Source of the DNA: Enchytraeus crypticus
Taxonomy: Eukaryota > Annelida > Clitellata > Enchytraeida > Enchytraeidae
Assembly (NCBI GenBank): GCA_905160935.1
Contig: CAJHZI010000703.1
Coordinates: forward strand, 33,501 to 97,500
DNA length: 64,000 nt
Reading direction: 5' to 3'
The number at the start of each line of letters is the position of its first letter. Positions within the stretch are counted from its first letter, which is position 1. Shown piece after piece: positions 4,955-43,478 of the stretch. A program made the translations under genes and the position numbers. The notes under the pieces were generated by a model, which worked only from the letters and a program-made list of their open reading frames with translations, ran no database searches and was not told the DNA's origin.

Positions 4955-7291
4955 ATGCTTGGACACGATGTTAATGGTCTGTTACAATCAGGAGGCGGAG
5001 TCTTGGGCGGAGTCAGCGGTTTGATTGACAGCCTGTGGCAGACGATGGACGGTCACGTGATAGCCTGTGGGGCGGGGCTAGCGCTCAGCTGGTACGCCTA
5101 CCACGTGGAGACACGTAAACAAGCGTATGTATCCGTGCAATACATGCAAATACCTGCAATACAATCAAATACCTGCAATACTATCAAATACCTGCAATAC
5201 AAGCAAATACCTGCAATACTATTAAATATCTGTAATACAATCAAATACCTGCAATATACCATAACCTTATTGTATTATATAAGTAAACACTCGTATGTAT
5301 CTGTGCAATACAATTAAATACCTGCAATACAATTAAATACCTGCAATACAATTAACCTTATTGCATTATATAAGTAATTTGTGAGCCTAAACCTATGGCA
5401 ATGCTTGACATCAGCATTGATGATCATTACACTAAATATTATGCCAAATGCCAATCATCATCAGTTCCGTGCTTTTTGAAGAGAACATAGGGCGTCAACA
5501 TTCCTCCATTCGTTTCTATCGTCAGTAATCTTCACAGCGTCTTCCCATGAAATGTTTAATGCTCTCAAATCCTTGTTGATCGTATTGAGCCAAGAACTTC
5601 TAGGTCTTCCTCGTTTCCTTTTTCCGTGAGTTGGTTTTTCCAGTCAACTGCAGTTAACTGCAGTTATTGTGCCAATACATGTAATTAAAGGCATTACACT
5701 CTGTAAGTCGTTAGTATTACATGTATATATTTAACACAATCCATTGACAGTTATAATGCCTCAGTGTTGTGTGTGTAATTTGTACCAGGAACCCGCAGTA
5801 TGTGGCTGTGTGTGACCTCAGTGAAAACATGAGCTGCTCCAAAGTGCTCACATCGGAGTAAGTATTTCTACTTGAGCCTTGAGGCCCATCTTACGGGCTC
5901 TAGCTAATCTGTGCTGCATAGATTTCTAAAGTATGATGTGTCATTTATGATTCTTTTGTGCCTGACGTATGTTTTGTGTAACCTATATTTTGTGTGATCT
6001 ATATGTGTGTGACCTTTATTTATGTGACCTTATTTTTGTGAGACCTACAAATATATATGTATATATGTATATATGTTATATGTTTATATGTTTATATGTT
6101 TATATGTTTATATGTTTATATATGTTTGCGACCCTTATTAGTGATATATTTGCATGTCTGTGAATGTCTGTTTATGTGTATGTATATATATGTGTAGGCA
6201 TATCAAAGGTTTTGATTCGACTCAACGTATGTGGTGTGAGTATATATGTGTATGTGTTTGTGTGTGTGTGTGTGTGTGTGTATTTGTGAGTATGTATGTA
6301 TCGACATATCAGAGGCTTTGGTTTGACTTGACGTGTGTGGTGTGTGTATGTATGTCTAGGTATGTGTATATGGACATGTATGTGTATATGTGTGTATGTA
6401 TGTGTGTATGTGTATGTGTATATATATATACATGTGTGTATGTATGTGTAGGCATAGCGGAGTATTTGGTTTGCGTGATGTGTGTGTTTGTATGTCTATG
6501 TCTATGTATGTGTATGTGTGTATGCGTATGTGTATATGCATATGTGTATGTATACGTAGGTATAGCAGAGGATTTGGTTTGACTTGACGTGTGTGGTGTG
6601 TGTGTATGTATGTCTATGTCTATGTCTATGTATGTGTATGTGTGTGTATGTGTATGTGTATATGTATGTGTATATGTATGCGTAGGTATAGCAGAGGATT
6701 TGGTTTGACGAGGTACTTGGTGGGAGAGAAAAGCTCATTGAATCTACCTAACTGTATCGCTGGTCTCTGCTTCTACCTCCTACAAATATCACTACGTATG
6801 TCTGCTTATCTCTTTCTCTCTCGCCCTCTCTCTCTCTCTCTCTCTCGCACACTCGCTCTCCAATGGATAGGCGAAAGTGTCTCGTACAGGTCCATCAGTT
6901 TTCCTTTCTTCATTTATCTCAGCTCATCTGTTATCACTGATGGACTGGATGATTGATTGATTGATTGATTTACCGAGTCATTTATTTTAATAATTTATTT
7001 CTTGACTTTTTAAAGACTGAACTGCCTGAGTAACTGACTGCCTTATTGATTAAATATTTTCCTATAGATTGATAAATTGATTGATTTTGCGCAGACATCC
7101 TATTCGGCTCACACAGAGCCTGGGCTGTATATACGCTGTTCTACACAAGTCTTATATCCTGCCTCGGATCCCTCTACCTCGCCTACATTCTCGCATTTGT
7201 TCTCAAGGATCTCTGCATTGTTTGCATATCAACCTACGTCGTTAACATCGCTCTACTCGTGTTTAACTACAACCACTATAGACTGTTGTAG
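4955..7291 (+). CDS. VKORC1: Vitamin K epoxide reductase (VKORC1 family), four exons
   Basis: Exons at 4955-5124, 5789-5857, 6686-6795 and 7095-7291 join in phase (2, 2, 1) to 181 residues. The product is an ER-membrane, four-helix oxidoreductase that recycles vitamin K epoxide to the hydroquinone used in gamma-carboxylation. Visible family marks are the loop cysteines in [10 protein letters not shown] (C65, C73), YSRGFGL, the conserved Asn in LNLPN (N102), and the redox pair in [10 protein letters not shown] (C157, C160) followed by the Tyr that lies in the warfarin-site motif of the human protein (Y164). Human VKORC1 has 163 residues; the extra length is at the N-terminus, where a second in-frame Met (residue 31) could be the real start. 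VKORC1 versus VKORC1L1 orthology is not resolved. Introns 1 and 2 and the 3' end carry duplicated exon edges (see findings). Confidence 0.95.
5125..5360. repeat. VKORC1: 15-bp minisatellite with a copied exon-1 end
   Basis: Begins directly at the VKORC1 exon 1 donor. Units of AATACCTGCAATACA type repeat about twelve times. At 5279-5311 the string GTAAACACTCGTATGTATCT repeats the true exon end and donor (GTAAACAAGCGTATGTATCC, 5115-5134). Confidence 0.8.
5455..5640 (-). mobile_element. LINE reverse-transcriptase C-terminal remnant (second family)
   Basis: Inside VKORC1 intron 1. The minus strand encodes [17 protein letters not shown], then [13 protein letters not shown], then DRNEWRN, the usual C-terminal tail of non-LTR reverse transcriptases. 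It differs from the 589-835 remnant, so two LINE lineages are represented. Confidence 0.7.
6060..6685. repeat. VKORC1: TATG/GTGT-rich minisatellite carrying exon-3 starts
   Basis: VKORC1 intron 2 is a degenerate TATGTGTG array into which four copies of the acceptor and first bases of exon 3 are woven, at about 6193-6222, 6299-6330, 6447-6476 and 6554-6588. The true acceptor is at 6684-6685. Long frames across it (MCVCV-type) are repeat artefacts. Confidence 0.9.
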
Positions 7292-7425
7292 CGTCACTCA
7301 AGAGATCTTAAAGGTCTACGTGTTTCACATCGCTCTTCTCGTGTTTAACTACAACCACTATAGACTGTTATAGCGTCACTCAAGAGATCTTAAAGGTCTA
7401 CGTGTTTCACAGCGCTCTATAAACT
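7245..7425. repeat. VKORC1: 82-bp tandem duplication of the VKORC1 gene end
   Basis: The last fifteen or so codons, the stop and the early 3' UTR (from 7245) recur at 7327 and partly at 7409, exactly 82 bp apart each time. The second copy keeps the NYNHYRLL codons and a TAG. Confidence 0.9.
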
Positions 7426-7570
7426 GCTATAGCCGCGTAATTATTTTGCGTGATGAGTATATTTAAACCTGCGGATGTTGAAGTAGAAATTAAACCTTGT
7501 GATTGTTTTCTTCTACAGTTGTTGTTGTGTTGTTATTGTTGATTTTCTACTGAATTAGGCCTAAAAAAGC

Positions 7571-7691
7571 TAATGTCAGCGTCAGTTTTCTCACTCGAAA
7601 GCGATGTCAGTGACGGGCGAGCCCAGGATTTGAATCCCGCACATACTGATCCGCGGTCGAGTATCTTACCGACATCGCCACTGGCTCCAGC
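7571..7691 (-). mobile_element. SINE family B copy
   Basis: Near full-length reverse copy just downstream of VKORC1. It keeps the family landmarks AACGTCAGTTTCCTC-like, GGATTTGAATCCCGC and GGTCGAGTATCTTACCGACA. Confidence 0.8.
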
Positions 7692-9015: not shown

Positions 9016-9017
<2 letters not shown>

Positions 9018-9283: not shown

Positions 9284-11101
9284 TTACGTCAGGACACTAA
9301 CAGCGTCCACATAGTGTTTCTGAACCACATCGCGACCGTCACCTAACACGTCAGTGATCTCATTGTCGAGGTTCAACTGTTCACCAGTAATTTGTTCATT
9401 CAACTCTTCCAATTCAGTGTCCTGCAACTCACCGGGCTCGCTTTCCGCAACGCTATAAATCCTTTCCACGATTCCATTAGCGGATTCTGCATGTTCAGAC
9501 ATAAGTCCCAGCGCCCTTCTCCCTGCCTCCCCTGTCGTATTCCGTGATAAACTCTGCAGGGAATGTCGAGGGGAAGCGTGACTGGGATTGGACGGGGCAT
9601 GCCGCTGATTGCAGGGAGATCTGGACATATGGCTGGGTGAGGAGGGGTAGCCAGCCTGAGTACCAGAGGAGCCACCGCATTCGTCAGGCCTCTGTTCCAT
9701 TGTCCTCTCGTGAGTCCCGTAGTTCTTAGCCTTCACTGTTTTAATGCGCCTCTGGTCGTTGTGATATGTAGCGACCCACGTTCGGTTCGTGAAAATTTCA
9801 TTCATTCTCTTTACCACACTCTCTGACTCTTCAAGCCCTTCGACAGGCTGACTGCTTAAATTTCTCCGAGGATCGACCAATGACAGCCTCGATACCTGCC
9901 TCTTCCTACTCGAATGGAATTTATTCCTACCATCCCTGGAGGCACCCATGAGGGTCTCGGCCTTCGAGCATCTAGGGGATACGGCGTTGGTACGCCGTGG
10001 AGGACAGGGCTGAGAGGCGGCGGAGAAACGCTCCCTGAGGCTGTAGCCCAGGACTCCCTGTTCGAGACGGCGCAGTGAGATGGGCTTATAACCTCGGCAC
10101 ACTGACTGAATAGCCTCTGAGTCACTCTCCAACAAACCTAAGGAGCTCTCTTTGTAGATAGCAGTCACAGTTGGGGTGGAAGTGAAGTCAGAGGTCTTGT
10201 AAGGGTTGTGAGCGTCATATTTGAATAGCGCAGATTGAGGAGGAGAAGCGTCTGTAGATGGACTAGTAGACAAAACTCTCTTAATCACATCACTTTCTTC
10301 CGTTGCATCAGCCTTGGCAAGACCTATGGCAGGTGCCGTAAGTTCGGGTTGAAGTTCATGAAGATCTTCAGAAACTAGTTGATGTGCATGAAGAACTTCA
10401 TTATCAGTCTGACCATGATGATGATATTCCGAACGGAGCTGTGCATGTGGGTAGACTGTTGAAGAATGGCGGGGTGAAATTAAATTCTGAGTGTGAGCCA
10501 AGCTGTTGGAGAGAGAAGTAGAACGAATTAGATAATCAGATGCAAGAGTGTTTTCAGTTGTAACATAGCTATCTGTCCGATTTGCACTAAAGGTCCCCCT
10601 TACACAGATGGCATTATATCTCTGTAGGCAGATTGAGAGTCTCTGTCTCAAGAAGCTGGTTTCGCGCTTATCTCCTGTAGCGGCGGATAAATGATGACCC
10701 AGTGAAGAAATAAATTCGCTTCCTTCCTTATTCATAGGACCTAAAGTCTCGAGAGCAAGTGGTATGAAACAATAGCTACGAGACAATTCATGATATTTGC
10801 TTATTTTTCTGTCGGCGGCTAGTTCAGCAGCTCCACCAGCTGACACCGAAGACACGTTTAAATAAGACTTAGCTACGGTATCTGTTACTGTAACATCCCA
10901 AAGCAGAGATTTGCCACCTTTCCACGGGATCAGAGTAAGACCATCTGGTCTTTTGCCATCTGATCTAGAAATTCCAGTCGGATCTAATTTGGAGGGTATA
11001 TTGGCCTTAATCAGGGCATGCCAAATTATGTGATTTATGTTGTGATTTATGTTATTATTATTATTATTATATAGTATATATATTTTTATATATGGTAACA
11101 C
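9284..11101 (-). CDS. Retrotransposon-type endonuclease domain with long unexplained extension
   Basis: An uninterrupted 605-codon frame. Its first 25 residues translate a TTA microsatellite, so the true start is upstream or lost. Residues about 27-170 resemble the restriction-like (PD-D/E-x-K type) C-terminal domain found in some reverse-transcriptase proteins: GKRPDGLTLIPW (RPD at 51-53), LLWDVTVTDT (68-75), then SAGGAAELAADRK, ALETLGP and FLRQRLS. That region normally ends the protein. Here about 430 further residues follow, rich in Ser, Glu and His with no domain I recognise, ending in an acidic ELQDTELEELNEQ stretch. There is no RT core upstream, so it is a 5'-truncated element, a fusion, or a domesticated gene. 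It lies between VKORC1 and THOC1, opposite in strand to both. Confidence 0.6.
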   Translation of the reverse strand: MLPYIKIYILYNNNNNNINHNINHIIWHALIKANIPSKLDPTGISRSDGKRPDGLTLIPWKGGKSLLWDVTVTDTVAKSYLNVSSVSAGGAAELAADRKISKYHELSRSYCFIPLALETLGPMNKEGSEFISSLGHHLSAATGDKRETSFLRQRLSICLQRYNAICVRGTFSANRTDSYVTTENTLASDYLIRSTSLSNSLAHTQNLISPRHSSTVYPHAQLRSEYHHHGQTDNEVLHAHQLVSEDLHELQPELTAPAIGLAKADATEESDVIKRVLSTSPSTDASPPQSALFKYDAHNPYKTSDFTSTPTVTAIYKESSLGLLESDSEAIQSVCRGYKPISLRRLEQGVLGYSLRERFSAASQPCPPRRTNAVSPRCSKAETLMGASRDGRNKFHSSRKRQVSRLSLVDPRRNLSSQPVEGLEESESVVKRMNEIFTNRTWVATYHNDQRRIKTVKAKNYGTHERTMEQRPDECGGSSGTQAGYPSSPSHMSRSPCNQRHAPSNPSHASPRHSLQSLSRNTTGEAGRRALGLMSEHAESANGIVERIYSVAESEPGELQDTELEELNEQITGEQLNLDNEITDVLGDGRDVVQKHYVDAVSVLT

Positions 11102-11212
11102 TGTCTGTTTACAGTTGTGGTAGCGATATTAGAGGATTATCGAGGATTTCTAAATTATTAGATTTGTCAGTTTAATATTTAATTTCTTGTCAAATCCGTA
11201 TGAGAAAGAACG

Positions 11213-12218
11213 ATGAATTACGAAGAAGAACGTAAAAAGTTTGCGGTAAGTTTGGTAGCTGGTACCGATAATGAGATGTCTGATAACGATGATTAGATAT
11301 GGTCTGATAGTGTTTATATAACTAATTGTGGATATTAACAAAAGGCATGCATAAAATAATATAGACTTGTTTAATAGAAAATTACTAAAAGTATGTTAGG
11401 CATGCATTAAGAAAGTAGTTTCTCTGCAAGTTTGTAGCATTTCGAAGTATTGATCAGATACATTCGAATGCATGCCTAAATATTTCACAATAGTGTCTCA
11501 ATAGCGCTTTGATTAACAGCGTCAGGTAACGTCATGAAGTTTTAAATGACAGATCCTGAGGTGAATTGAACTCTCGTGGGTTCGAATCCCAGCCCCGCTG
11601 ATCTGAAAGTAAAATCTTGAACAGTCACTGGACTGGCTACATGGTAAATGGACTAAGTTGCCTAACGGTTTAAACATATGGCATTAAAAGTGATAGATAT
11701 CAACATATTTGATCATTTCACTATAAAGCTTGTTTACTTTTGCATACTGATATCTAGTTCATTAGGCATTGTAAATTTGATCTGTACTATACTTTGTAAT
11801 AATAGATATAAACATTATACGTATGTACGTAAGACAGAACAGGCAATTAATGATGATTTCTATTGATTGATCGTTAGGATGGACTGGATGGTCTGACGAA
11901 CAAGAAGATGTTAGCAGAAGATTTCAAATCTTTATATGACAGCGCTGCCGGCAGGTTAGTTAACGGAGAAACTACGATTTGATAAGAACATGTTTTGATT
12001 TAAATATCAGGAATGCTCTGCATAAGTTGAATCTTCTGTAATTAGCTGGTTCCGATGGCGATGTCGGTAAGATATTCAACCACGGATCACTATGTGCAGA
12101 ATTTAATTCTGGGCTTGCCCATCACTGACCAATCATTTTCTAAATAGTATTTATTTATTTTGTCAATGTCCCATTTCTCTGTGGGATAACTAGTTATCAT
12201 TAATTTCATAGTTCTGCT

Positions 12219-12270
<52 letters not shown>

Positions 12271-13554
12271 ATTGATTGAAGTGATGCTGATAAGAAGATG
12301 GCGTTGGACCAGGCTCTCAGAGACAAACTCTTTGATCTCACGGTACGTAGAGCTCTCATTGTCTGGACTGGCACCACTTTAGATCTCACCGATGCTCTTG
12401 ATGGTTTTGTGAGTGTGTGCTGGCTATATTTAGTGTTGTGAGAGCTTGAGGCGTTGCTGACATCTGCTGAATAACATGATTTTATGAGCTTTAAATCATT
12501 GAATATTTGTAATGTTAGTATTTTATATTACAAATTAGTTCCCATTGTTATGTCCGGGATACCTGAAGAATAGACCTATCGTGTAAATACACATGTGTCG
12601 TAGAAGGCCACATAGAAACAAGATTAAAAGTAATTAAAAGTAGTTAATAATGGTAGCACTGCAGAGCGAGTATAATATTTAATAATGGTAGCACTGCAGT
12701 GCTGATATAGTCTATAGGTGCTATAATTGTGCATGTTGTTATTGTTGTTGTTGTTTATTTTAACTGATATGTTAACAGCTGATGGACACAGAGACGTCTC
12801 AGTTCATTGCACTGCTTGACCTCACAGCCAGCATCGTTCAGATGGGTGAGTCACTGTGTACTTGTAGTCGAGTAAAATATTCTAAGATATTCCAAAATAA
12901 CATAGGATAGCGTAAAATAACATGTTAATGTGTGTAAATCTCTGTTAGTATGTTTGCATATTTCTATGTTTATGTAAGTATATATATGTTTATTTTTGTG
13001 TGTATGTATGGGTATGTATGCATATTTGTATGTGTGTTTATGTGTTTATGCGTGTATATTTACGTGTGTGTGAAAGTGTATTTACGTGTATGGATATTTA
13101 TGTGTGTTTGCATGTGTATGTATGTGTTTTTATCTGTATTTATGTGTGTATGTATGTGTGTTTATGTGTATGTGTGTATTTAAGTGTATTTATGTGTATT
13201 TATAGTTATTCATCATCATCTTCCCTTAAATCCCAATTAACCAGGGTCGGGATATGAATAGACTTTCTTCAGTCCTCCCTGTCCCACACCATATCATCAG
13301 TCAATCCCTATCCATTCGTGTAAGTTTTGTGGCAATTACTGGAGCCTAGGCGCTCACCAACCGAATGCCCTTTCTGACGTTGATATGGATCTTAGTGCGT
13401 TAGTCGCCTTCTACGACACGTGCAGTCACCGGTTGGTCAAATTCTTCAAACGACCCGGGCACAACACGGGGAATGTATTTATAGTTATTAAGGTAACATA
13501 ATATCTAATATACTATTGATAAAATAACATATATATATAATATATGTATAACAT

Positions 13555-13598
<44 letters not shown>

Positions 13599-13613
13599 TA
13601 ATATATTTATATT

Positions 13614-13671
<58 letters not shown>

Positions 13672-16600
13672 GTATTTACATATATATATATGTGTATATA
13701 TATGTATGTATATATATATATACATGTAGATATATGATAACATATGTATAATATATAAATAACATATATTTGATATAATATTTGTAAGATAACATAATAT
13801 GTGTGTGTGTGTTTAGATCTGTGCACAGCAGGCACGCTGTTTGTAATGCTCTCAGACATGTTTGACACGTTAACGTTGGAGAGATGTGATGAGCTATTTG
13901 ATTACGTGGAACAACACATCGCTATGTGGAAACTGGTTTGTAGTCTCCTCTTGTTGCTTCTTCTTGATATCTCATTAGTAAAATTAATAAAGATTTTGTG
14001 TATTTTTATACTAACTGAAATACTTCTTTGTGATACGCTGCATTCATTCACGTATAAATAATTATTAAATATGTATTTACTTGCGTTTAAATTGATGTAT
14101 AGTGATTTGCCTTTTGGCGAGGAATGGACGTTGTGTTCGTATTGATTGATTTGTTTTGTGTTTGACTGTGTTGTAGTGTGTATGTGTGTTATATCTCTTA
14201 AGTTCCCTTGTATGTGTGAGCGGATGTGTAGAAGAGTGTGTAGATATCTGTACGAGTATACGGAAAAGACTTTTTATGTGTATGTGTGTAAAACTGTGTG
14301 TATGTGTGTATGACGCTGTAAGTTTGTGTATATATGTTTGACTGTTGAGGTGTATGTGTTTTTGTATAAAATATTTTTTTTTGTATGTCAGTGTGTGTAT
14401 GTGTGTTTGTCTAGAGGTCTTTAATACTTTTTATATCTTTTGCTTAGACTGTCTAAATAGCGTAGAGGTAACGTCATGAACTTTTAAATGATAGATCCCG
14501 AGGTGAATTGAATCCTCGTGGGTTCGAATCCCAGCCGCACTGATCTGAGAGTAAAATCGCGGACATTCACTGGACTGGCTAAATGGAAAATTGACAAAAT
14601 TGCGTAATGGTTAAATATGTGGTGTTAAAAGTGCTAGATATCAACATAGTTGATCATTTCACTATAATGATTATTTACTTTACTTCTATGGTGTATATGT
14701 TTGTCTAGGAGGTCTTCTACAATGCAGGAAAGAATTACATGCTAAGAGTGAGCAATGGTAAGCTGCTTATCTGTGGCTTTCTCTACCATGGCTTTATCTA
14801 ATTCTTATAGCTACTTATCTATTTCTTATAGCTACTTATCTATTTCTTATCATATTGCGCAGCTCTGCTATCAAAGAGCTAAATCTAAGCTAATTGGTGC
14901 CAGATGTCATTTGATAGAGAAACGTCAGCTCTTGTGCAGGTCATTTTCTTCAGTAAAATAGTTAATTTACTGTCGATTTTTCTTAGTTTGACTGTGCTAG
15001 GAGTAACAATTGTCCTTGTCTATAGAAAGTGTGACTTGGACCTGTCAACCAGCAGAGAATCGTAGAAGAGGCGTGGCCTGTGATCTTGTTTGTTTCTTGT
15101 TTCAGATCTGCTGCGACGACTGTCCAAGTCTCAGAACACAGTGTTCTGTGGGCGTATACAACTCTTCCTAGCCAGGCTCTTTCCTCTCGAGGAGAAATCA
15201 GGTTAGATTGATTGATTGATCAAGTGATTAATGGATTGATTAAGTGATTAAATGATTGAATGTTTGATTGATTGAATGCTTTATTAAAATAGGACAGTGA
15301 TATTTAACGGAAACACATGTTCTAAAAGGAGGAGTATGTAGGCAGAGAATGTAATGGCTGTCTTATAGAGAGTCATTGATAGAGAATCTAACAGCTGAGG
15401 TGTAAGCTTAACTCTAAATGAGGCTCAACTCTAAATGAGGCTCAACTCTAAATGAGGCTCAACTCTAAATGAGGCTCAACTCTAAATGAGGCTCAACTCT
15501 AAATGGAGCTTAACTCTACATGAGACTTAACTCTACATGAGACTTAACTCTACATGAGACTTAACTCTAAATGAGGCTCAACTCTAAATGAGGCTCAACT
15601 CTAAATGAGGCTCAACTCTAAATGAGGCTCAACTCTAAATGAGGCTCAACTCTAAATGGAGCTTAACTCTACATGAGACTTAACTCTACATGAGACTTAA
15701 CTCTACATGAGACTTAACTCTAAATGAGGCTCAACTCTAAATGAGGCTCAACTCTAAATGAGGCTCAACTCTAAATGAGGCTCAACTCTAAATGAGGCTC
15801 AACTCTAAATGGAGCTTAACTCTACGTGAGACTTAACTCTACATGAGACTTAACTCTACATGAGACTTAACTCTAAATGAGGCTCAACTCTAAATGAGGC
15901 TCAACTCTAAATGAGGCTCAACTCTAAATGGAGCTTAACTCTACATGAGACTTAACTCTACATGAGACTTAACTCTACATGAGGCTTAACTCTACATGAG
16001 GCTTAACTCTAAATGAGGCTTAACTCTAAATGAGGCTCAACTCTAAATGATGCTTAACTCTACATGAGGCTTAACTCTACATGAGGCTTAACTCTACATG
16101 AGGCTTAACTTGGGTAGTTTAGCTAACAAAGCATATTACAGAAGAGAAGTTAACCTGTTGTTGTTGTTGTTGTCATAGATGTTGTTGTTGTTGTCATAGA
16201 TGTTGTTGTTGATGTCATAGATGTTGTTGTTGTTGTTGTTGTAGGTCTAAACCTGACGAGTCAGTTTAACCTGGAGAACATAACAACCTACGCCAACAAT
16301 GATCAGCCAATAAGCGAGGTTTGTCTAGATGTATGTGTGCTTAGACCTCTATGTATGTCTAGATGTATGTGTGCTTAGAGCTCTGTGTGTGTCTATATGT
16401 ATCTGTGTATGTAATATGGACCATATGTGTCTGTGTAGTTGAAACTATGTGTGTATGTGTAGCCATCTCTATGTATATGTGTAGTAGTAACTATGTATGT
16501 ATGAGTAGTTGTCTCTGTGTGTATGTGTAATTGTAACTGTGTGTGTATGTGTAGTTGTCGCTATATGTATGTGTAGTTTTCTCTGTGTCTATGTGTAGTT

Positions 16601-18201: not shown

Positions 18202-18235
<34 letters not shown>

Positions 18236-19094: not shown

Positions 19095-19129
<35 letters not shown>

Positions 19130-30095: not shown

Positions 30096-30235
30096 CTGTC
30101 AATCAATCAATCAATCAATCAATACACCTATACCTAGTAGGTAGAATGCCGCCACCTAGCTGTTAATCAATCAATCAATCAATCAATTGATTACCCCTAT
30201 ACCTAGCAGAGTACCGCCTCCTAGCTGTCAATCAA
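30096..30235. repeat. Copied tetraspanin exon start (two extra copies)
   Basis: CACCTATACCTAGTAGG...CACCTAGCTG at 30124-30164 and CCCTATACCTAGCAGAGTAC...CTAGCTG at 30194-30229 repeat the acceptor and first 33 or so coding bases of the exon starting at 30095, separated by CAAT runs. Confidence 0.85.
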
Positions 30236-30307
30236 TCAATCACTCAATCACTCATTTAGTCCACCTTATCTCTTTCTAATGTAATGTGAAGTATTGTAGA
30301 GATAGAA

Positions 30308-30340
<33 letters not shown>

Positions 30341-30887
30341 TGGAGATAGATAGAGAGAGATAGAGATAGAGCTAGACGCCTGTATGTGCTATATATGTGT
30401 TTCTTTATGACTGGAACCAGTAGCGATATCGATATGATGTTCGACCGCGGATCAGAATATGCGGGGTTAAAATCCTGGGCTCGCCCGTCACTGACATCGC
30501 CTTCGAGTGAGGAAACTGACGTTAACATTAGCTTTACCGGCTTTTAGATATATATACACTGACATCGCTTTCGAGTAAGGAAACTGACGTTAACATTAGG
30601 TTTAGCAGCTGTTAGATATATCTAGCGCCTGTGTGTGTATAGGTTATATACACAGAACAGCTGATGATGAAGATAGCACCACTCGCTCTGTCCCAAGTGT
30701 ATTACATCTACTTCCTAATAATCCTCTCGATGAAATCATAACAAGCACCCGGGTGTAGCAGGCTGGGTGTTCAGTAGTCAGGGTGTACAAGCAAACCGGA
30801 TTATACCGGATTATACCGGACTATACCGGACTATACCGGGTTATATGGGGATTAGGATTCCTGGTTATTATTAGATTGATTGCTTAG

Positions 30888-30919
<32 letters not shown>

Positions 30920-31845
30920 CTGACTGACTGACTGACTGACTGACTGACTGATATGTTAGTGTGATGATGTATTGGTAGACTGAATGTCTTTAAATTACCT
31001 TATGTGGTTGCTTTTAATAAGAAGAAGAGAAGTTTGAGCCGAACAAAATATTTATGTTCGTTTGTATATGTCAATGTCGTTACACACACGACATACGCAC
31101 ATGTTTACTGAATTCCCTTGATTAATTTAGATTTTCTAGTTTTCGTTGTTTTCCTATTCGTCTTCCTGATCGGTTGTGTTATTAGTAATCGTAGCTTTTT
31201 GATAGCACATCTATTGCTGCTAGCGCAAATTTATGAATAACATTTATGGTTGCAACATCCTTGGGTTTTACATTTAGGCCTAATATTATTTAATTTTATA
31301 ACCACGACCTTCTCCCCATCCCAACCAAGCATCCCAAGCACCCCCTCCCAATTCTGGAGACTTTGAATTGTGTCAGGAGGATTTGTTGTTAATGATACAA
31401 CCACCAGTTATCCACTCACCACTCCACTCCACCTCTCATGCTTTGCTACTGCAATCAACCTGAGTGTAGCGATGTGAGAGCAGGACGTACACATACATAC
31501 ACACATACATATACATATATACATATAAATACACACATACACACATACATACACATATATATATATATACATATATACACACATACATACATAGCCTACA
31601 CACACTTTCATACAAACATACACATACACACATAAACAAATACGCACATACACACACGTTCATACACACTTACACACATTATGTAACACATACACGTATG
31701 CACGCATATAGACATACATACTTTGGACTGGTTTTATGGAATTTGGAATTTGCACCGTTTTTGGACCTTCTTTTTGCTCGCTGGCTTGATTTTGTCTCAA
31801 TTGTGCTCGATGTTGTCATTGATGACTGTAGCACTCTAATTGTTG

Positions 31846-31888
<43 letters not shown>

Positions 31889-33600
31889 ACACATACATAC
31901 ATACACTCATACACATATGTTCATACACACATACATATACCACTCCATTAATTAAAAAGCTTCATGTGCAACACGCTAACGGCTTGATTGATTGATTGCT
32001 TAAATGACTGATGTATTGATTGATTTTTGATGACTTCAGTTGTTAAAGAGCTTGTTTAGACTAACCCAGAATAGAATATTGAATGATATGAGCAAAGCTT
32101 TGAATCCTTTTCGTCCGCAACTCATTTTTTGACTTTATTTCTAGGTTTAAATTTATATTAACTGTCAGATAGCGTCAATCTGTTTGATGCTTTACCTAGT
32201 CGAGCACAAACCACACCAGTTAATTAGACCAATATGAGTAATAAGTTAATAACATAATTAATCCGACTAATTATAATAAATCTATTGCAAATATTACTAC
32301 TTAATTAATCAATTGATATAATTAATGGGTTTATTTACCAGCTGCTAGTATGGCTAGTTTATCAGCTACGACTAATAATTAACTTGCTAATGTGACTATG
32401 GTTGACTAACTATAGCTTGAGATGATGGTCGCCACTCGGCTCTCCACACACTGAAGATTCTCTTGTGAAAATGTGTCAACCTCACTTCAACATCTCTCTG
32501 ATACCACATCACTCTCTTTCTACCTCTCTCCGTCTTTCTCTCGCTCTCTATCTCTTTCAATTTCCCCCCCCCCCCTCAATGTTATCGTTGACACGGTGGT
32601 TGAACCAGCAGAATTCACGTTAAGGGAGACAGAGTTGGTATAGTGGAATTAATAACTTAAATGGAAACAACACCATCAAGAGACCATACAATACTACGAT
32701 AAAGTAATATTAAATACAAACTCTCTCAGTTAGGAGCAATCCAAAGATCAACGAGCAACACAATAAAATCGTAAATGGACTTGCACTGTTTTGATCGCGG
32801 TTTCTCTTGTGGTCTCTATGTACTCAGTCGTCATCGTGTGGTGCTTTGGCGCCTGTTTGTATAGAGTCTGCAAGAGACGTCCCTGACATTGCCAAACGGC
32901 GAGGAACCAGACGTTAAGTTCTTATTGATTAGACATAATGAGGGGTGATTGACAGCTCCTAAGCCACACCCACCTCTCGGCTCTTTTATGACGCTCTCGT
33001 ACTATTCGTACGACCATCAGTGCAGCCCCACCCCCTATCCTACTCCGCCTCCCCTTTTCAATGCCTGCTGACTCCACGAAACTACTGATAACAGCTCTCT
33101 CTCTATCTTTGTCTCTCTCTCTCTCTCTCTATCTCTACCTCTCTCGCTCTCTCTCTCTCTGTCCCTCTCTTTCTCTCTCAACCTCAGGTGCTCTAACAAA
33201 CGACAAGTCCACGCTAAATAGCGGTGATGGTGGTCAGCTAGATAAGATACTTTGTATATTCCCTGACGCACATTTTCTAGCTTTAGATATTGATATTGAT
33301 GTTTATGCATTTTGTGTTGCTTCTGCATTTGATGTGAAAATAAACATATTGTATAGTCTATTGGCTGGAGCCAGTAGTGAAGTCGGTAAGATAATCGACC
33401 GCGGATCAGTATTGCGAGTTCAAATCCTGGGCTCTCCCATCACTGACATCGCTTTTGAGTGAGGAAACTGACGCTAATATTAGCTCTAACAGCTTGTTTA
33501 GGTACAACTGCAACATAAGAAATAACACAAAACCCGTTCAACTGCACAGAAGCATTTTACTATTGTTAGTCGTAGAAACACAAACACACAAGAAAAACAA
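30236..33600. other. Spacer with SINEs and microsatellites; tetraspanin 5' end expected here
   Basis: Holds SINE B (30412-30540) followed by a second partial copy of its 3' end (30553-30610), an 11-bp CCGGATTATA array (30790-30840), TGAT/TGAC arrays (30885-30950), CACATACA arrays (31480-31700), a family E repeat (31722-31870), C and CT tracts (32510-32575, 33100-33180), a SINE-like element (32795-32930) and SINE B (33362-33495). I could not identify a tetraspanin first exon in this interval. Confidence 0.6.
31722..31870 (+). mobile_element. Repeat family E copy
   Basis: Runs CTTTGGACTGGTTTTATGG, TTGCACCGTTTTTGGACCTT, CTCGATGTTGTCATTGATGA, CTGTAGCACTCTAATTGTTG, then TTA repeats. Relatives are at 59918-60025 (+) and 8060-8155 (-), with pieces at 46640-46690 and 59015-59085. 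Confidence 0.7.
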
Positions 33601-34010: not shown

Positions 34011-34055
<45 letters not shown>

Positions 34056-34217: not shown

Positions 34218-37200
34218 TTAACTTTGATTGGCAGACTGAAGCTCCAGCCTCGCCCAGCTGCCTGGCTCCAACTTCTTCATATTGATTTCCACCTTAGTGC
34301 CCAGCATCTTAACTGAGCTCTTCTCTGGGTCTATGATCTGATCAATCAATCAATCAATCAAGCAATCGATCAATCAATCAATCAGTCAATCAATCAGCCA
34401 ATCAATCAATCAGTCAATCAATCAGTCAATCAATCAATCAATTAATCAGTCAGTCAATCAGTCAGTGAGTCAATTAATCGGTCAATCAGTCAATCAATCA
34501 ACTAATAGGTCAATCAATCAACTTACATACCACCCAAACAATTACAGCAAAGATTCAATGGAACAAACAACTAAAGCTCTTTATAAAAGTGCATTAGCCT
34601 GTTTATCAGGGTTGATAGAAAACAAAAAGTGCTTTACATTACAAATATTGAGTGACTTTTTAAATTAATTACTGAAATTTAGAAAATCAGTAACTTTATT
34701 ACCTTCATTAGCATAGTTTCTACTTATTATTATTATTATAAATTTTTTATTTTTGTAGTTTATATTTAAAGTATATTTTAAAAACTTACTGTATTTATGG
34801 TACACAAGACTACAAACCCCGTGTAGCACAAAGAACTTGTCGAACTTCCCCCCGTCGAACACAACGCTGACTCTGAGCGACACCTTGTTTGCCTCCACCA
34901 CAGTCTTGAGCGGCTGAGCCAGCTTAGCGAATATAGACACCGTCACGAATGAGCCGGTCTGGTGCCAATCAAACCTACAGACCGCCTTCTTCTCTCCTAA
35001 TTCCTCCTCCTGCATCAGTCAATCAGTCAGTGGTCAGTGAGTCAGTCAGTGAATCAGTCAGTGGTCAGTGAGTCAGTCAGTGAATCAGTCAGTCACTCAG
35101 TCAGTCAGCCAGTCAGTCAGTCAGTCAATGAGTCAGTCAGTCAGTCAATCAGTCAGTCAGTCAGCCAGCCAGTCAGTCAATCAGTCAGTCAGTGAGTTAG
35201 TGAGTGAGTGAGTGAGTCAGTCAGTCAATCAGTCAGTCAGTCAATGAGTCAGTAAGTCAGTCAATCAGTCAGTCAATCAAATCAATAAATCAATCAATCA
35301 TCTAATTAATAGGATATTCAATTAATGAGTTATTCATTCTTCAGTCAAGCAATCAATTAATCGATTAGTAGATCAGTACTTTTACTAAATTCATATCAGC
35401 ATACAGTAGGTAACACGTAAGATTTATCACGAGTGGACGAGGAAATGGAAGTAAAATGTCAGATTGGTTGAGAGCTAGAAACCTTTTTCTTCCACAGATG
35501 TTTGCCACTGGCACAGCCTGCCTGTGAGAGAAAAGTGTTGAAGTCTGTTGTCTTCATCTCACAGCACGACCAATACTTCATTCTACACAATACATACACA
35601 CATACATACACACTTACATACACATAGCACGACCAGTACTTCATTCCACACATACATACACACATACGTACACATAGAATAAACAGTACTTCATTCTACA
35701 CATACAAACACCCATACATACATATACATACACACATAGTATGAGCAGTACTTCATTTTACGCTTACATAGACACATTCTTCTAAGACATTTTTGTTTAA
35801 AGCAGTTCATATATACTGGTAGAGTATTTATTATTACACACATAAACGTATAGAAATAATATAAATTAATAACATTAATTACTATTAATTAATAATATAA
35901 ATTAATAGTCATTAATGATAAATGATTGATAACAGAACAGATAGTTAGCTGATAAGACCAACCCTTCATGGAACACGGGTACACCGGGGTGATAACAACA
36001 ACACTCCTTCAAGCTTCTCTCTCCTTCATACGTCTATCATCACAACAACAACAACAACACAATCAATCGTTTGATAACAACAACACTCCTTCAAGCTTCT
36101 CTCTCCCTCGTACGTCTCTCAGCACAACAACAACAACAACAACACAATCAATCGTTTGATAACAACAACACTCCTTCATGCTTCTCTCTCCCTCGTACGT
36201 CTATCAGCACAACAACAACAACAACACAGTCAATCAATGAATGAATTAGCCCTTGTAGTGAACAAGAATTGGTTAAAGAAACGATTATCAGAAACTATTA
36301 TACTCTTAGAGAAACGATTATCTGAAACCATTATACTCTTAGAGAAACGATTATCTGAAACCATTATACTCTTAGAGAAACGATTATCTGAAACTATTAT
36401 ACACTTAGAGAAACGATTATCTGAAACCATTATACTCTTAGAGAAACGATTATCTGAAACCATTATACTCTTCATAAGTCATGCCAAGAGCTGGAGTAGA
36501 GACAGAGAGATAGAGCAGAGATACTAAAACATAGACAGAGATGTATAGAGAGATACACACAGCAGCATAGAGAGACATAGAGGTATAGACAGAGAGATAT
36601 AGAGAGATACATACAGCAGTACAGTTATTGTTCTTGAGATACTAAAGCAAACTCAGAGAGGTATAGAGATGCATACAGCAGTACAGCTGTTGTTCTTGAG
36701 ATACTAAAGCATACTCTGAGAGGTACAGAGAGATACATACAGCAGTACAGCTGTTGTTCTTGAGATACTAAAGCAGACTCAGAGAGGTATAGAGAGATAC
36801 ATACAGCAGTACAGCTGTTGTTCTTGCAGGAAGTTCCCAGTGTTATCTCATTTGTCGCTGACTCTGTTATCAAATAACGTCAAACATCATACTATAAACA
36901 TTCATCATCATTCAGTAAACATTCAGTAAACATTCATCATCATTAGCATCATTCAGTAAACATTCAGCATCATTCAGTAAACATTCATCATCATTCAGTA
37001 AACATTCAGCATCATTCAGTAAACATTCTTCATCATTCAGTAACATTCATCATCATTCAATAAACATTCATCATCATTCAGTAACATTCATCATCATTCA
37101 GTAAACATTCATCATCATTCAGTAAACATTCATCATCATTCAGTAAACATTCATCATCATTCAGTAAACATTCAGTTAACAGTTAACAGTTGACCATGGA

Positions 37201-38554
37201 TCAGCATGTGCGGGGTTCAAATCCTGGGCTCGCCCATCACTGACATCGCTTCCGAGTGAGAAAACTAACGTTAACATTAGTTTCACCCCAGGTGTGCTGT
37301 CAGTGCAGAGTCTTAACACAGCCTCAGAAGCACATTCAAGAGACTTCCTATACCTGTACTCTGCTGGGCTGCGCTGGTAGAGGTCAAGCTCATGTCACTC
37401 ATCTGCTTCTCCAGGGCTTGCTTAAGGCTGTCACCAACCGTCACCGACAGTCTGCTCAGAGGCTCATCAGCACTGGGTCGAGCCATCGGCTGTGGCGGCT
37501 TTACGATCACCTCAGTCGCCTGCCAGGATCAATCAATCAATCAGTCAATTAATCCACCAATCAATCAACAGATATTTTGTGATGTCACGTGTTTGTAAAG
37601 CTTTGTCTAGTCTGCGCTCATTAGAGAGAGGACAGTGAGTAGGAATTTGTGCCAACAACTGCCTAGAAAGAGAGAGAGAGAGGGAGATAGAGGGAGAGAA
37701 AGAGAGGGAGGGAGACAGAAGGAGAGGGTGACAAAGGTATGTATAGAACTAGTAGAAGGTAATCTTAGAAACTGTCTCTCTGAATACACACAATACAACA
37801 GTTTCTTCAAGATATGAAATTTGTTTCGATGTAACTGGAATAAAGTCGTAATGAATTACCGCACAAGAAAACCCAGAAACTAACCGTAGGATTTTCCACA
37901 TCTCCATTGCTGCTGCCATTCGACGGAGCGGGTTTTTCCGGCTCAGGGGGTTTTACGTTGGAGTGGGGGCCGCGGGTGCAGCCGGGTATAGAGAGGAACT
38001 CGGAGAAGTCCGTGCTTCTCTTCTTACAACACGACCAGCCCTTGAGTGCATCGTGGAATATAGGTCCACCTGGGTGGTACTGGCATGAGTCTATAGGATC
38101 AATCAATCAATCAATCAATCAATCAGTCAGTCAGTCAATCAATCAGTCAATCAATCAATCAATCGATCAATCATCACGGATCACAGGCCCACTTGGATGA
38201 TACTGGCAAGAGTCTACACCCAGTGTCCCAGCAGTGATCTATATTAAAACTCACTTCATCATCTGATTAGTGAGGCCGGCCTAGCAGTCATATAATAACT
38301 AATGAATTAATTGATTGATATCTATAGGCCATTCACAGTGATACTAACATCTAAATGCTAAACGGTCAAACAATTTCAGGCGTTTGCAGTAAATGTGGAA
38401 TATACTTATTGCTTTTAGTCGTTCATTAACAGTGAATTGATAATTGAAATTATTAACATAATCTCACAGAGAAATACAAACCTTCTTTGTTATCGGCTGG
38501 GTTAAACTTCTGTCCGCAGCCCTTGTTGTAGCACAGCACTAAACCCTCGGACAT
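34218..38554 (-). CDS. CHORDC1: CHORD domain-containing protein 1 (morgana), eight exons
   Basis: Minus-strand exons in order: 38554-38482, 38090-37885, 37519-37354, 36863-36805, 36033-35963, 35582-35483, 35009-34818, 34337-34218. All phases agree (1,0,1,0,2,0,0), giving 328 residues (human 332). CHORDC1 is an HSP90 co-chaperone. CHORD-I spans exons 1-2 ([44 protein letters not shown]). The linker is in exon 3. CHORD-II spans exons 4-6 ([43 protein letters not shown]). The CS domain is in exons 7-8 ([20 protein letters not shown] ... [20 protein letters not shown]). The start ATG at 38554-38552 gives the family N-terminus. At least four exon edges, and the start-codon region, have neighbouring copies. 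A 12-codon upstream frame precedes the start. Confidence 0.97.
34345..34510. repeat. CAAT/CAGT tetranucleotide array
   Basis: Directly beside the acceptor of CHORDC1 exon 8 (minus sense), the usual TGAT-array-next-to-acceptor arrangement. Confidence 0.9.
35020..35290. repeat. CAGT tetranucleotide array
   Basis: Long CAGT/CAAT array next to the acceptor of CHORDC1 exon 7. Confidence 0.9.
35583..35770. repeat. CHORDC1: Copied CHORDC1 exon 6 start
   Basis: GCACGACCAGTACTTCATTC and variants at about 35628, 35683 and 35743 repeat the exon 6 acceptor region (true site 35582-35584) within a CACATACA microsatellite. The first copy keeps the reading GAATGAAGTACTGGTCGTGC on the minus strand. Confidence 0.85.
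36034..36210. repeat. CHORDC1: Two extra CHORDC1 exon 5 starts
   Basis: Copies at about 36072-36120 and 36156-36206 repeat acceptor plus codons [14 protein letters not shown] (third copy SMKE), then diverge. Both keep an AG acceptor and an open frame to the divergence point. Confidence 0.9.
36276..36472. repeat. 33-bp tandem repeat
   Basis: Six units of AACGATTATCTGAAACCATT plus 13 bases, in CHORDC1 intron 4. The length is a multiple of three, so both strands stay open ([22 protein letters not shown]), but there is no start context or splice evidence for a gene. Confidence 0.9.
36600..36830. repeat. CHORDC1: Repeated CHORDC1 exon 4 end and donor
   Basis: The exon 4 end, read on the minus strand as AACAACAGCTGTACTGCT/GTATGT (36805 boundary), recurs at about 36733-36763, 36671-36700 and 36608-36638 with spacing of roughly 63-65 bp. 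Confidence 0.9.
36895..37175. repeat. 21-bp CATTCAGTAAACATTCATCA array
   Basis: About thirteen units in CHORDC1 intron 3, followed by a 5'-truncated SINE B (37193-37290). Confidence 0.9.
38165..38220. repeat. CHORDC1: Copied CHORDC1 exon 2 start
   Basis: A diverged copy of the exon 2 acceptor and first 30 or so bases. On the minus strand it reads TAG/ACTCTTGCCAGTATCATCC, which would encode [10 protein letters not shown], against the true [10 protein letters not shown]. Confidence 0.85.
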
Positions 38555-38568
38555 CCTGCCCAACACAG

Positions 38569-39242: not shown

Positions 39243-39277
<35 letters not shown>

Positions 39278-40357: not shown

Positions 40358-43300
40358 ATGGAAATCGAAATTCTTCCTACGCCACAGGGCTTTATTGATT
40401 GGAAGCCACGATGTCGCAGAATATCATCCGGAAATAAATTCTTTGAGGAGGGTAACCTTGCATGCAGAATGAGCTCCCTCAAGTATTCCTGCATAGGTGT
40501 CGATAGCCGTGAAAGTAAAAGGTAAATTATGAGTTTGTTTCAATCTTATATCTTTGTGCATTTTATTTGCCGCTATTTTCATTTTATTTGACATTGAATT
40601 GCTTAATGTTAATTAATGCTAATTCACTGCTCAATTGATTGATTAAATTATTTATTGAATGGTTTAGGGATTGATTTTTGTTGTATTGATGGGTAAATAA
40701 ATGAGTGTATGTAAAGAGTGTATGAGTGTAAATATGTATATTGATATTCCGCGCTACTTTGGCATTTGGCATATAGCGGCGCTTTATGGATATACTAATT
40801 ATAATAATAGTAATAATAATAATAATTATTATTATTATTATTATTATTGATATAAATGTATATTGATATTGTACCAGATTGACGGACGTACAGTGTGAGA
40901 TAGGCGGTTGCTGTAAATCATTCACCTCTCTATTGGCGTGAGTCGTCGGCTTCTAACAATATAATTCTATATTGACATTGCCTTTATTGTCCTTTAGTTT
41001 ACCCTTTTCATCCTCTACTGTAATCATTTCATCATCCTCTAAAAATGCTCTAATATTATAGTCATTTCTTCATCCTGTAATAGCCTTTCATTGTACCCTA
41101 TAGAACATTATACTCATGCCAATAGCTCTCATACTGTGATCAGCACAACTTAATACAAAATGTATAGCATGACTCAGTGATTCTCTAACCATCAGTCATG
41201 GAGTAATGACTCTCACTCTTAGTGCACTGCCTACTGGTAGGTCCATGGTATATAAAGCCTCCACTCTTCTCTGTCATGGAGTAATGACCAGCACTGAATA
41301 TATGACATGACTCGATGATACTGTAACCCTTGGTCATAATGTCATGGTCCTCTAAGATTGGACACACAGCTGAGTCCACGTTAAATCCTCTGCAGTGATT
41401 GTCACACTCATTTAACATAATTAATTGATGATCTAGTAGACTGATTGATTAATTAATTGATTGATTGATTGATTGATTGATGGATCGACCGACCGACTGA
41501 TTGATTGACTGATTGATTGATTGATTGATGCAGATATGAGATGCACTATGCTGCACTGCACCGCTACGTCTGCACAGAATGTCACCATTGTTTCCCCACA
41601 CAACATCTACTGGACCTTCACCTCACCGAGTGGCACAGCTCTCTCTTCTCTCTTCAGTCCATCACCACTCCCATGGTATCAATCAATCAATCTATCAATA
41701 GTTCTCTCTTCTCTCTTCAGTCCATCATCACTCCCATGGTATCAATCAATCAATCTATCAATAGTTCTCTCTTCTCTCTTCAGTCCATCACCACTCCCAT
41801 GGTATCAATCAATCAATCTATCAATTAATCCATCAATCATTCAGTGTTGGGCACGTAACTGAAAAAGAGTAGTTAAGCTAAACTATTTTTTAAAGTAAAA
41901 AATTAGTTAAACTAAACTATTTTGAGCTAAAATAATAGTTATACTTAACTTTTATATTAATTACCATTTCATTAATACGCAATTGCATCATAAGTGTTAA
42001 AGTATTACAGTAAGTAAACAGTTTGTTCATGGCTTTAATTGCTAGTTTTGTACAAATGATAAAAATCACTACTCTCATCTGTATCAGCTCTCAATATCAT
42101 GTCTGGAGCTTATTGGCTAAATATTATAAATATCAGAATGGGGTCAGAATTCTTATTTATTAATTATTTATTATTTTAGTTTATTTTATTCTATGTGTTT
42201 TGTGGCACAGTACATTCTATTCGTAAAATTAGACATAAGCTTAAACCCATTATTTTATAACGCACAGTGCTGGATGTTGTCATGTGTTATACATAGTACC
42301 GCTGTGCTGTAGAGAGTTTTGTTCATGACCCAAAGTGCTGGATGTTGTCATGTATGTGTTTAGTACCGCTGTCCTGTAGAGAGCTGTGCTGAATTGTTCT
42401 TCACCCACTCGCTGCGTCGCTCTCACCTCATCACTCTGCACAAGTATCCGCCCAACTATCGCTTCCTCAAGAACAGGGATCAAGCCTGCAGCGTGGTCAC
42501 TGAAACAACGACAGAGGCAGCGGCAGAGGCAGACTTGTCTGCAGGCAGCTGTTGTAGAGGGGACTGCCCTACTGATGGGTCTGATGTAATAGCGACCACA
42601 AGTCTAGGCGTGACTTCCACATCTACCACTCCATCAGCCTGTGCCACAGCTGAGTGTGGGGCCAGTCAACCACTGGAGGATTCTGTGACCCCTGCGCTAC
42701 GCTTCACCTATAGGTAAATCTTTAAGTACTCGTGTGTTATACGGGTAAACCTTTTCGTACTCGTGTGTCTTGCAGGTAAATCTTTAAGTACTCATGTGTT
42801 GTACAGGTAAACCTTTTTAAGTACTCCTATGTCATGCAGATAAATCTTTAAGTATTCGTATGTTGTGCATATAAACCTTTTCGCACTCGTGTGTCGTACG
42901 TGACGTATGTCGTATGTCACGAGTACTTAAAGGTGTACCTGCACTCGTGTGTCGTGCAGGTAAACCTTTAAGTACTTGTGTTTATTTGTTGACTTCTTCA
43001 CTTGTGTATAGAATCGAGATGAATAGAATATAACTGGCACAATTTTTCTTATTTTCCTTGGACTGTAATTGTGGAATGTATTGTTCATTTCCTGCTGCTA
43101 TTTAGTACACCAGTTGATCAATTGATCAACTGATTGATTGATCAATTGATTGATTGATCAATTGATTGACTTATTGATTGATCAATTGTTTGATTGATCA
43201 ATTGATTGATTGATTGATCAATTGATTGATTGATCAATTGATTGATTGATCAATTGATTGACTTATTGATTGATCAATTTATTGATTGATTGATTGATTG

Positions 43301-43478
43301 ATTATCTAGGGTACCAGAGAACATATGTTTCGGCCAGGGCTCCACTAAGGCTTTCTCGAGGAAGACTGCTAGGGGCAGTGACTCAGTGTCAGTGAAGAAC
43401 AAGAACAAGTCTAGAGCCAAATCAAAGCAGTCAGGGAACCAGTCTAACAGCGTTGCTATGGAAACTGAACTGTCTTGA
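40358..43478 (+). CDS. ZNF511: ZNF511-type C2H2 zinc-finger protein, five exons
   Basis: Exons at 40358-40521, 40878-40937, 41534-41675, 42364-42713 and 43310-43478 join in phase (2, 2, 0, 2) to 294 residues (human about 250). Order: N-terminal segment with NKFFEEGNLACRM; finger 1 split over exons 2-3 (CEIGGCCKSFTSLLAYEMHY); finger 2 (CTECHHCFPTQHLLDLHLTEWH); finger 3 in exon 4 (CPVESCAELFFTHSLRRSHL then HKYPPNYRF); a Thr/Ala/Cys-rich linker longer than in vertebrates; and the family C-terminus VPENICFGQGSTKAF followed by a basic tail. ZNF511 is a poorly characterised conserved protein; a nuclear, nucleic-acid-binding role is inferred from the fingers. Exon 3 and 4 edges are duplicated in the introns. 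Confidence 0.92.
41637..41826. repeat. ZNF511: 63-bp triplication of ZNF511 exon 3 end
   Basis: CCATGGTATC, which spans the exon 3 donor, occurs at 41671, 41734 and 41797, exactly 63 bp apart. The upstream SLFSLQSITTP codons are copied too. The frame is open through all three units, so intron retention or use of a later donor would only lengthen the protein. Confidence 0.9.
41842..41960. mobile_element. Possible hAT-type MITE end
   Basis: CAGTGTTGGGCACGTAACTG followed by AAAAAGAGTAGTTAAGC resembles the terminal sequence of many hAT-type MITEs in animals. The matching far end was not found, so this is tentative. Confidence 0.3.
42280..42390. repeat. ZNF511: Copied ZNF511 exon 4 start
   Basis: CATAGTACCGCTGTGCTGTAG (about 42293-42313) duplicates the true acceptor and first codons TTTAGTACCGCTGTCCTGTAG (42359-42379), with the CTGGATGTTGTCATGT lead-in also repeated. 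Confidence 0.85.
42711..42970. repeat. ZNF511: Donor-derived minisatellite in ZNF511 intron 4
   Basis: The true donor AG/GTAAATCTTTAAGTACTCG (42712) begins a run of about eight units (CAGGTAAACCTTTTCG, CAGGTAAATCTTTAAG, CAGATAAATC), several keeping AG/GTAAA. Confidence 0.85.
43085..43305. repeat. TGATCAATTGAT array
   Basis: TGATCAATTGATTGAT units, many self-complementary (ATTGATCAAT), up to the ZNF511 exon 5 acceptor. Confidence 0.9.

Follow-up and report, generated by a model that had tools for sequence, protein, structure and literature searches.

Tandem duplication is a described source of new splice sites. In the potato RdRp gene, an intron was gained by tandem duplication across an intron-exon boundary (PMC4974935), and in Drosophila, introns have arisen through duplication of exonic proto-splice sites (PMC2891723). 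Here we describe a related pattern in a 64,000-nucleotide stretch of DNA from the annelid Enchytraeus crypticus (contig CAJHZI010000703.1 of assembly GCA_905160935.1, positions 33,501 to 97,500 of the forward strand; hereafter, the window). Exon ends of several genes in the window have extra copies in the adjacent intron or flank that resemble splice sites (decoys), and arrays of the tetranucleotide TTGA lie just ahead of a minority of acceptors. We put a probability of roughly two in three on the explanation that the decoys arise as a side effect of untargeted tandem duplication, which is frequent in non-coding DNA and which splicing tolerates.

As in potato RdRp, the duplicated unit here crosses an intron-exon boundary and includes the branch site, polypyrimidine tract, AG and exon head; that report concerns one gene, in which the new intron was detected, whereas here many genes are affected, with up to about ten copies (PMC4974935). 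The Drosophila case likewise has tandem duplication as the origin of new splice sites and copies with stop codons, but the units there lie within coding sequence and carry AG/GY motifs, whereas those described here straddle existing junctions (PMC2891723). Splice signals within the copied unit, and a position across or inside an exon, are features shared with intron gain of this type. Some human exons have long AG exclusion zones and distant branch points (PMC1431707). Introns with TTGA arrays here also end in long AG-free stretches; the human zones were not described there as microsatellites, whereas here the zone is itself a tandem repeat and may contain the branch site. Selection acts against spurious AG in the polypyrimidine tract (PMC10946897), in keeping with the AG-free tract before those acceptors that have a TTGA array, yet rows of complete decoy acceptors are tolerated just upstream, the opposite of what such selection leads one to expect. 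Intronic tandem repeats have been associated with splicing outcome for CeRep25B of C. elegans (PMC4039745) and a 7-bp repeat in intron 5 of dog LHX3 (PMC3223203), as may be the case here, but the passages on these two describe neither acceptor-anchored, strand-specific arrays nor units with exon heads. In the open-licence literature searched, we found no report of acceptor-anchored TTGA arrays or of cassettes composed of repeat, acceptor and exon head. Introners are near-identical introns scattered across many genes; the copies here match their own exon edge.

Seven genes in the window were resolved exon by exon, all seven with a continuous spliced frame, giving 52 exons, 45 introns, 46 acceptors and 45 donors, or 91 junctions. 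Each junction, represented by 30 exon and 8 intron bases, was searched for within 900 bp on either side, and a copy was counted if it contained at least 14 exon bases. Copies were present for 15 of the 91 junctions, all of them in five genes (15 of 79 junctions): four each in THOC1, CHORDC1 and the tetraspanin gene, two in ZNF511 and one in VKORC1. The same search returned no copies for the 12 junctions of the REEP-like and RYBP-like genes. In total, 27 copies were found at the 15 junctions, with a median identity of 92% (range 78-100%); the nearest copy lay 28-142 bp from the true site, and arrays detected by Tandem Repeats Finder covered many of the copied sites. When the junction queries were compared with remote parts of the window instead, none of the 91 was matched in any of 20 trials. 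A laxer scan with 36-mers, performed before a correction to the THOC1 exon-14 donor that is explained below, flagged 20 of 91 junctions. These results bear out the observation of a first-pass annotation of the window, which had reported copies of some fifteen exon ends in five genes, one to four per site, at acceptors as well as donors, on both strands, and many with AG or GT kept; we find the dinucleotide intact in 24 of the 26 copies in which it is aligned. The copied sites, with an array that precedes another tetraspanin acceptor, are as follows.

6185-6710, + strand: VKORC1 exon-3 acceptor; decoy exon heads near 6198, 6452 and 6560 with AG kept, a fourth copy without an aligned AG, true exon at 6686.
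20160-20349, + strand: THOC1 exon-13 acceptor, one copy; decoy head from 20221, true exon from 20315.
21101-21273, + strand: THOC1 exon-14 donor region, a 69-bp unit repeated 2.5 times; true donor after 21141, decoy donor after 21210 with GT kept and in frame, third copy without GT.
22721-22859, + strand: THOC1 exon 16, whose true donor follows 22678; decoy donors, both with GT, follow 22781 and 22844.
24655-24858, + strand: THOC1 last acceptor, with a TTGA array, a decoy acceptor (exon head from 24776, with an in-frame stop), a second TTGA array, and the true exon from 24859.
30058-30250, - strand: tetraspanin exon-2 acceptor, two decoy cassettes of TTGA tract, CAG or AACAG, and exon head; heads at 30224 and 30159, true exon at 30095.
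29114-29280, - strand: tetraspanin exon-3 acceptor decoy; head at 29255, true exon at 29113.
26539-26638, - strand: tetraspanin penultimate-exon donor copies; the decoy donors lie 28 and 56 bp inside the intron and retain GT.
27893-28064, - strand: array of 11-bp units containing TACTGACAT words, ahead of the tetraspanin acceptor at 27889; far end partly inverted.
36562-36827, - strand: CHORDC1 exon-4 donor; decoys at 64, 128 and 190 bp inside the intron, all three retaining GT.
36034-36230, - strand: CHORDC1 exon-5 acceptor; two decoys with heads at 36200 and 36115, AG kept.
35583-35700, - strand: CHORDC1 exon-6 acceptor; two scored decoys, one with GG and one with AG.
38091-38225, - strand: CHORDC1 exon-2 acceptor decoy; head at 38213, AG kept, a TTGA array at 38098-38173 between decoy and true acceptor.
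41646-41801, + strand: ZNF511 exon-3 donor, two copies in a repeat with a 63-bp unit that is open in frame; donors after 41675, 41738 and 41801, GT kept.
42285-42363, + strand: decoy of the ZNF511 exon-4 acceptor, with AG intact; exon head from 42297.

At 7234-7419, an 82-bp unit repeated 2.3 times carries the VKORC1 coding end and stop codon into the 3' flank. These 3'-flank copies are the same spill-over, at the coding end rather than at a splice site.

Copying in the window was not concentrated at exon edges. Random points inside introns were copied in 100 of 300 cases (54 more fell in simple or dispersed repeats), significantly more often than junctions (Fisher p = 0.0016), while 47 of 300 intergenic points (15 more simple or dispersed) and 11 of 300 points inside exons were copied. 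Tandem units of 13-130 bp crossed 13 of the 91 junctions, compared with 31.9, 15.0 and 5.9 expected per 91 random intron, intergenic and exon points, respectively. The annotation had proposed beforehand that the pattern would be ascertainment only if intron-internal segments were duplicated as often as boundaries. Because intron interiors are in fact duplicated more often than junctions, we attribute the boundary focus to ascertainment, and the unusual density of copied boundaries that had been claimed does not hold. Its suggestion that repeat expansion drags exon sequence along fits these data, but a special origin of the expansion at intron edges does not. As with minisatellites and tandem duplication in general, no preference for exon-intron boundaries was seen in the window. 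Tandemly duplicated bases made up 41.6% of introns and 19.9% of intergenic DNA; the intergenic class may be diluted by unrecognised genes or old transposons, which would lower its share.

To compare the window with the rest of the genome (802 contigs totalling 524 Mb, some of them megabases long), we used loci fetched for 90 of 266 exon matches (kinesin, 30 of 128; chaperonin, 30 of 57; myosin, 30 of 81); 24 synthetase matches contributed no loci. Of 92 loci, 85 were kept after removal of the self hits L001 and L002 and of long uninterrupted matches or frames (L003, L004, L033, L051 and L052). We assigned the acceptor to the closest [CT]AG (found in 83 loci) and the donor by a simple GT rule (49 loci); some assignments will be wrong, and several loci overlap or share genes and are not all independent. 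Copied edges were present at 15 of 83 of these held-out acceptors and 6 of 49 donors, compared with 75 of 500 flank points (16 more simple) and 4 of 648 points inside exons. A run with 55 loci and a different donor rule gave 11 of 53 acceptors, 5 of 43 donors and 75 of 400 flank points (22 more simple). Only 2 of the 83 acceptors had inverted copies; the direct, head-to-tail orientation is that of tandem duplication. The AG was kept in 26 of 30 aligned acceptor copies. In its exon-edge copying, the window is typical of the genome and not exceptional.

A different signal does belong to intron ends. Short-period repeats, chiefly sense (TTGA)n, crowd the 3' ends of introns in the window, an edge signal absent from the first-pass annotation. 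They occupy 26-36% of the last 60 nt before acceptors, compared with 12.7% over introns as a whole and 2-8% of the first 60 nt past donors. In the last 25 nt before acceptors, sense TTGA words account for 27% and antisense words for 0.3%; beyond 300 nt, the sense words fall to ~3%. Of 27 sense TTGA arrays in introns, 15 end within 10 nt of an acceptor, compared with 0.8 expected and a maximum of 7 in 200,000 simulations, and none of 6 antisense arrays ends near one. Circular shifts of the introns gave at most 12, compared with 16 of 45 introns observed. One of the 15 acceptor-anchored arrays is in the REEP-like gene, outside the five genes with copied junctions. The arrays before acceptors are listed here.

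17005-17277, + strand: one of the many sense TTGA arrays, located ahead of a THOC1 acceptor.
12281, 17857, 18377, 20997, 23567, 24104, 24858, 41533 and 43309, + strand: acceptors with other arrays ending 2-8 nt before them.
38090, 37519, 34337, 30095 and 26701, - strand: acceptors with other arrays ending 2-8 nt before them.
56000-56236, - strand: TTGA array that abuts the last acceptor of the REEP-like gene.

The AG-free end of the intron had a median length of 94 nt in 11 introns with strong TTGA arrays and 39 nt in 25 introns taken for comparison. Other T-rich repeats (TG, GTT and TTGTA types) likewise precede acceptors. Across the window acceptors and the 83 held-out ones, the tract from -25 to -4 contained 44% T, 12% C and 20% G; it is T-rich and poor in C and in this differs from a polypyrimidine tract of C and T. 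We considered, and dropped, the idea that antisense repeats close to donors pair with sense repeats close to acceptors, both being present in just 2 of 45 introns. In an unannotated stretch on the - strand (53324-53446), a TTGA array with a TTAG end stands ahead of a long open frame, and its end is a predicted acceptor of a further gene.

The held-out loci showed the same strand-specific arrays. In the 25 nt upstream of the exon matches, sense TTGA words made up 11.5% and antisense words 1.2%, with both at ~3% downstream. In the 100 nt upstream, 17 of 85 loci had a sense array and 1 of 85 an antisense array (paired test, p = 1.8e-8); for the myosin loci alone the difference was weaker (4 vs 1 of 30, p = 0.0026). 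Of 48 arrays in the kinesin and chaperonin loci (55 loci), 46 were on the sense strand; some came from one cluster, so they are not all independent. The four rotations of TTGA were the four most enriched tetramers before the 83 held-out acceptors, followed by TGTG, GTGT and TGTT. At a minority of acceptors, sense, AG-free, T-rich repeats, chiefly (TTGA)n, fill the zone in which a branch site and a polypyrimidine tract would be expected, ending a few bases ahead of the AG.

At a subset of sites, the full cassette, consisting of the intron tail or repeat tract, the acceptor AG and ~20-64 bases of exon head, is duplicated. Such cassettes, counted by eye, were found in L009, L035, L042, L054, L058, L059 and L085, repeated up to about ten times, with the last copy continuing into the exon. 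At L054, a cassette of TTGA tract, acceptor and ~58 exon bases occurs at least six times ahead of the last exon of a chaperonin gene and twice ahead of the penultimate exon. A downstream exon at L059 has eight full decoys and one cut short; there are four decoys each at L042 and L085, and three at L058 and L009.

Untargeted tandem duplication is the explanation that we favour. In the window, about one third of intron points fall in sequence that is duplicated nearby, and units tens of bases long overrun exon edges. The copying step would likely be slippage or unequal exchange, anchored in repeats as one end. Splicing would mostly pick the copy joined to the exon body and its downstream donor, so that decoys persist, and stray decoy products would be lost to decay. 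Sense (TTGA)n contains stops in all three frames and antisense in none; since reading from a decoy into such a sense array encounters, whatever the frame, one stop per 12 nt, decay of the stray products would be expected. Several results weigh against this explanation. The held-out acceptors were copied as often as flanks (p = 0.51) and not less often, as junctions were in the window, so a version in which selection reduces the spill-over suits the window more than it does the loci sampled elsewhere. A TTGA tract lay just upstream in only 5 of 30 aligned held-out acceptor copies, and is thus not needed for copying, and L042, L056, L057 and L058 carry other T/G tails instead of TTGA.

The copied sites might, instead, serve as alternative splice sites that are kept for longer or shorter exons. 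The intact dinucleotides in both samples speak for this, as do three decoys, ZNF511 +63 and +126 and THOC1 +69, that lengthen the exon in frame and free of stops, the last recognised after the exon-14 correction. However, other dinucleotides in the same copies were intact in 648 of 781 cases (83%), so that retention of AG or GT is not above background (p = 0.16): the splice dinucleotide is not better kept than its neighbouring bases, as it would be at tandem alternative sites, and we rejected selection on it. Moreover, 21 of the 23 decoys checked were out of frame or met stops (the two ZNF511 decoys being the others), and those leading into sense (TTGA)n reach a stop within 12 nt. We therefore consider use as alternative sites improbable; the annotation had offered that extra exon ends may be tolerated or used, and the copies genome-wide speak for tolerance, with no evidence of use. 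Still less probable is duplication targeted to exon-intron boundaries, for instance through splicing-coupled breaks or R-loops. Exon edges in the held-out loci were copied far more often than exon interiors (15/83 vs 4/648), and short-period repeats are concentrated before acceptors, but this concentration is one-sided, with only 2-8% at donors; intron interiors in the window were copied twice as often as junctions, and elsewhere flanks matched acceptors. On the window controls and the held-out loci, we rejected targeting. An origin of the copies in assembly error, to which tandem repeats are prone, is the least probable of all, as the copies have diverged (78-100% identity) and recur on many contigs, and an assembly of this size in 802 contigs, several of them megabase-long, suggests long reads.

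What the TTGA arrays do is a separate matter. They may be tolerated filler, where any AG-free, T-rich repeat would serve and no array holds the branch site; we rate this a little below even odds. The TG, GTT and TTGTA repeats before acceptors and the rank of TGTG, GTGT and TGTT directly after the TTGA words agree with it, as does the lack of enrichment of YTGAY (0.8x) in 68 held-out acceptors without arrays. On the other hand, antisense (TCAA)n is AG-free as well but nearly absent before acceptors, so freedom from AG alone is insufficient; the four TTGA rotations lead all tetramers, and YTGAY was 2.1-fold enriched in 25 window introns without strong arrays (p = 3.6e-4). The other possibility, which we hold as a tentative minority view, is that (TTGA)n, as a branch-site-like microsatellite, has come to replace the usual branch-site and polypyrimidine zone in a substantial minority of introns, and that instability of the arrays spawns the decoys. 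TTGAT fits the branch-site consensus yUnAy, and the TTGA unit matches a candidate branch-site word on the transcribed strand at the expected place. Each unit, being free of AG, could then act as a branch site, and growth of the array would be harmless to splicing, and the spliceosome would have to pick the last among up to about ten near-identical acceptors. Where arrays fill the zone, the branch adenosine would lie either in a TTGAT unit or unusually far upstream. TTGAT as the general branch-site word of the genome is weakened by the disagreement between held-out loci (0.8x) and window (2.1x).

A count of array ends across the 524 Mb bears on the anchoring of arrays at acceptors. The word TTGATTGATTGATTGCA was followed by G (CAG) at 523 places and by A, C or T (CAH) at 194 together; as a control for the other flank, the CAH form CAATCAATCAATCAACAH occurred at 590 places, a number from which no ratio to the CAG form CAATCAATCAATCAACAG is claimed. 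By eye, a same-strand neighbour within 400 bp was seen for 26 of the 100 listed CAG places and 5 of the 100 listed CAH places (p = 2.7e-5). Clustering is nevertheless weakened as a mark of CAG-ended arrays, as ~30 of the 100 listed CAATCAATCAATCAACAH places on the other flank were clustered too, and because clustering is not specific to CAG-ended arrays, we rated a branch-site role of the arrays slightly lower.

Where nearly identical acceptors stand in a row and only the last is the true one, nature provides an experiment on the choice of 3' splice site, and also on the strength of selection against decoys. If TTGA tracts hold branch sites, they would be a case of a microsatellite that grows within an essential signal and leaves it working. 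Cassettes, if they are ever used, would give exons a recurrent way to lengthen, or new introns a way to arise, open to observation in a single genome.

Lengthening of THOC1 exon 14 was considered and rejected. With the donor in the second 69-bp copy, 23 residues would be inserted relative to human THOC1; we placed the donor in the first copy because the phase fits and the insertion disappears. The corrected donor was used for the copy counts at the 91 junctions, the retention of AG and GT and the array-to-acceptor test. The donor in the second copy still underlies the 36-mer scan, the copy coordinates and distances, the crossing of tandem units, the decoy frame check, the TTGA word profile, the circular shifts and the YTGAY count in the window. 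The mapped genes, all with continuous frame, are listed below.

4955-7291, + strand: VKORC1, 4 exons (4955-5124, 5789-5857, 6686-6795, 7095-7291); Pfam VKOR.
11878-24972, + strand: THOC1, 19 mapped coding exons, exon 14 at 20998-21141, 5' end not found; identified by a match to PDB 7znk (E 5.5e-157).
26280-32125, - strand: tetraspanin, 8 exons; Pfam Tetraspanin.
34218-38554, - strand: CHORDC1, 8 exons; Pfam CHORD and CS.
40358-43478, + strand: ZNF511-like gene, 5 exons, provisionally named.
55859-58103, - strand: REEP-like gene, 5 exons, not in the first-pass list, no junction copies; Pfam TB2/DP1/HVA22.
60753-62685, + strand: RYBP-like gene, 3 exons, not in the first-pass list, no junction copies; Pfam RYBP.

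The ZNF511-like product matched no Pfam family; its name, without database support here, is the first-pass label together with presumed homology. No tRNA genes were found in the window, nor any Rfam match at gathering scores. Between VKORC1 and THOC1, a frame of 614 codons without stops runs on the - strand (9287-11128) and may be part of a retroelement. A dispersed element with the core TCAAATCCTGGGCTCGCCCGTCACTGACATCGC, presumably SINE-like, had no matches in prokaryote and viral contigs. In the window, the core matched at 13 places with at most 3 mismatches, where 0 were expected, at 1166-1198, 7601-7633, 24485-24517, 27491-27523, 27650-27682 and eight more positions.

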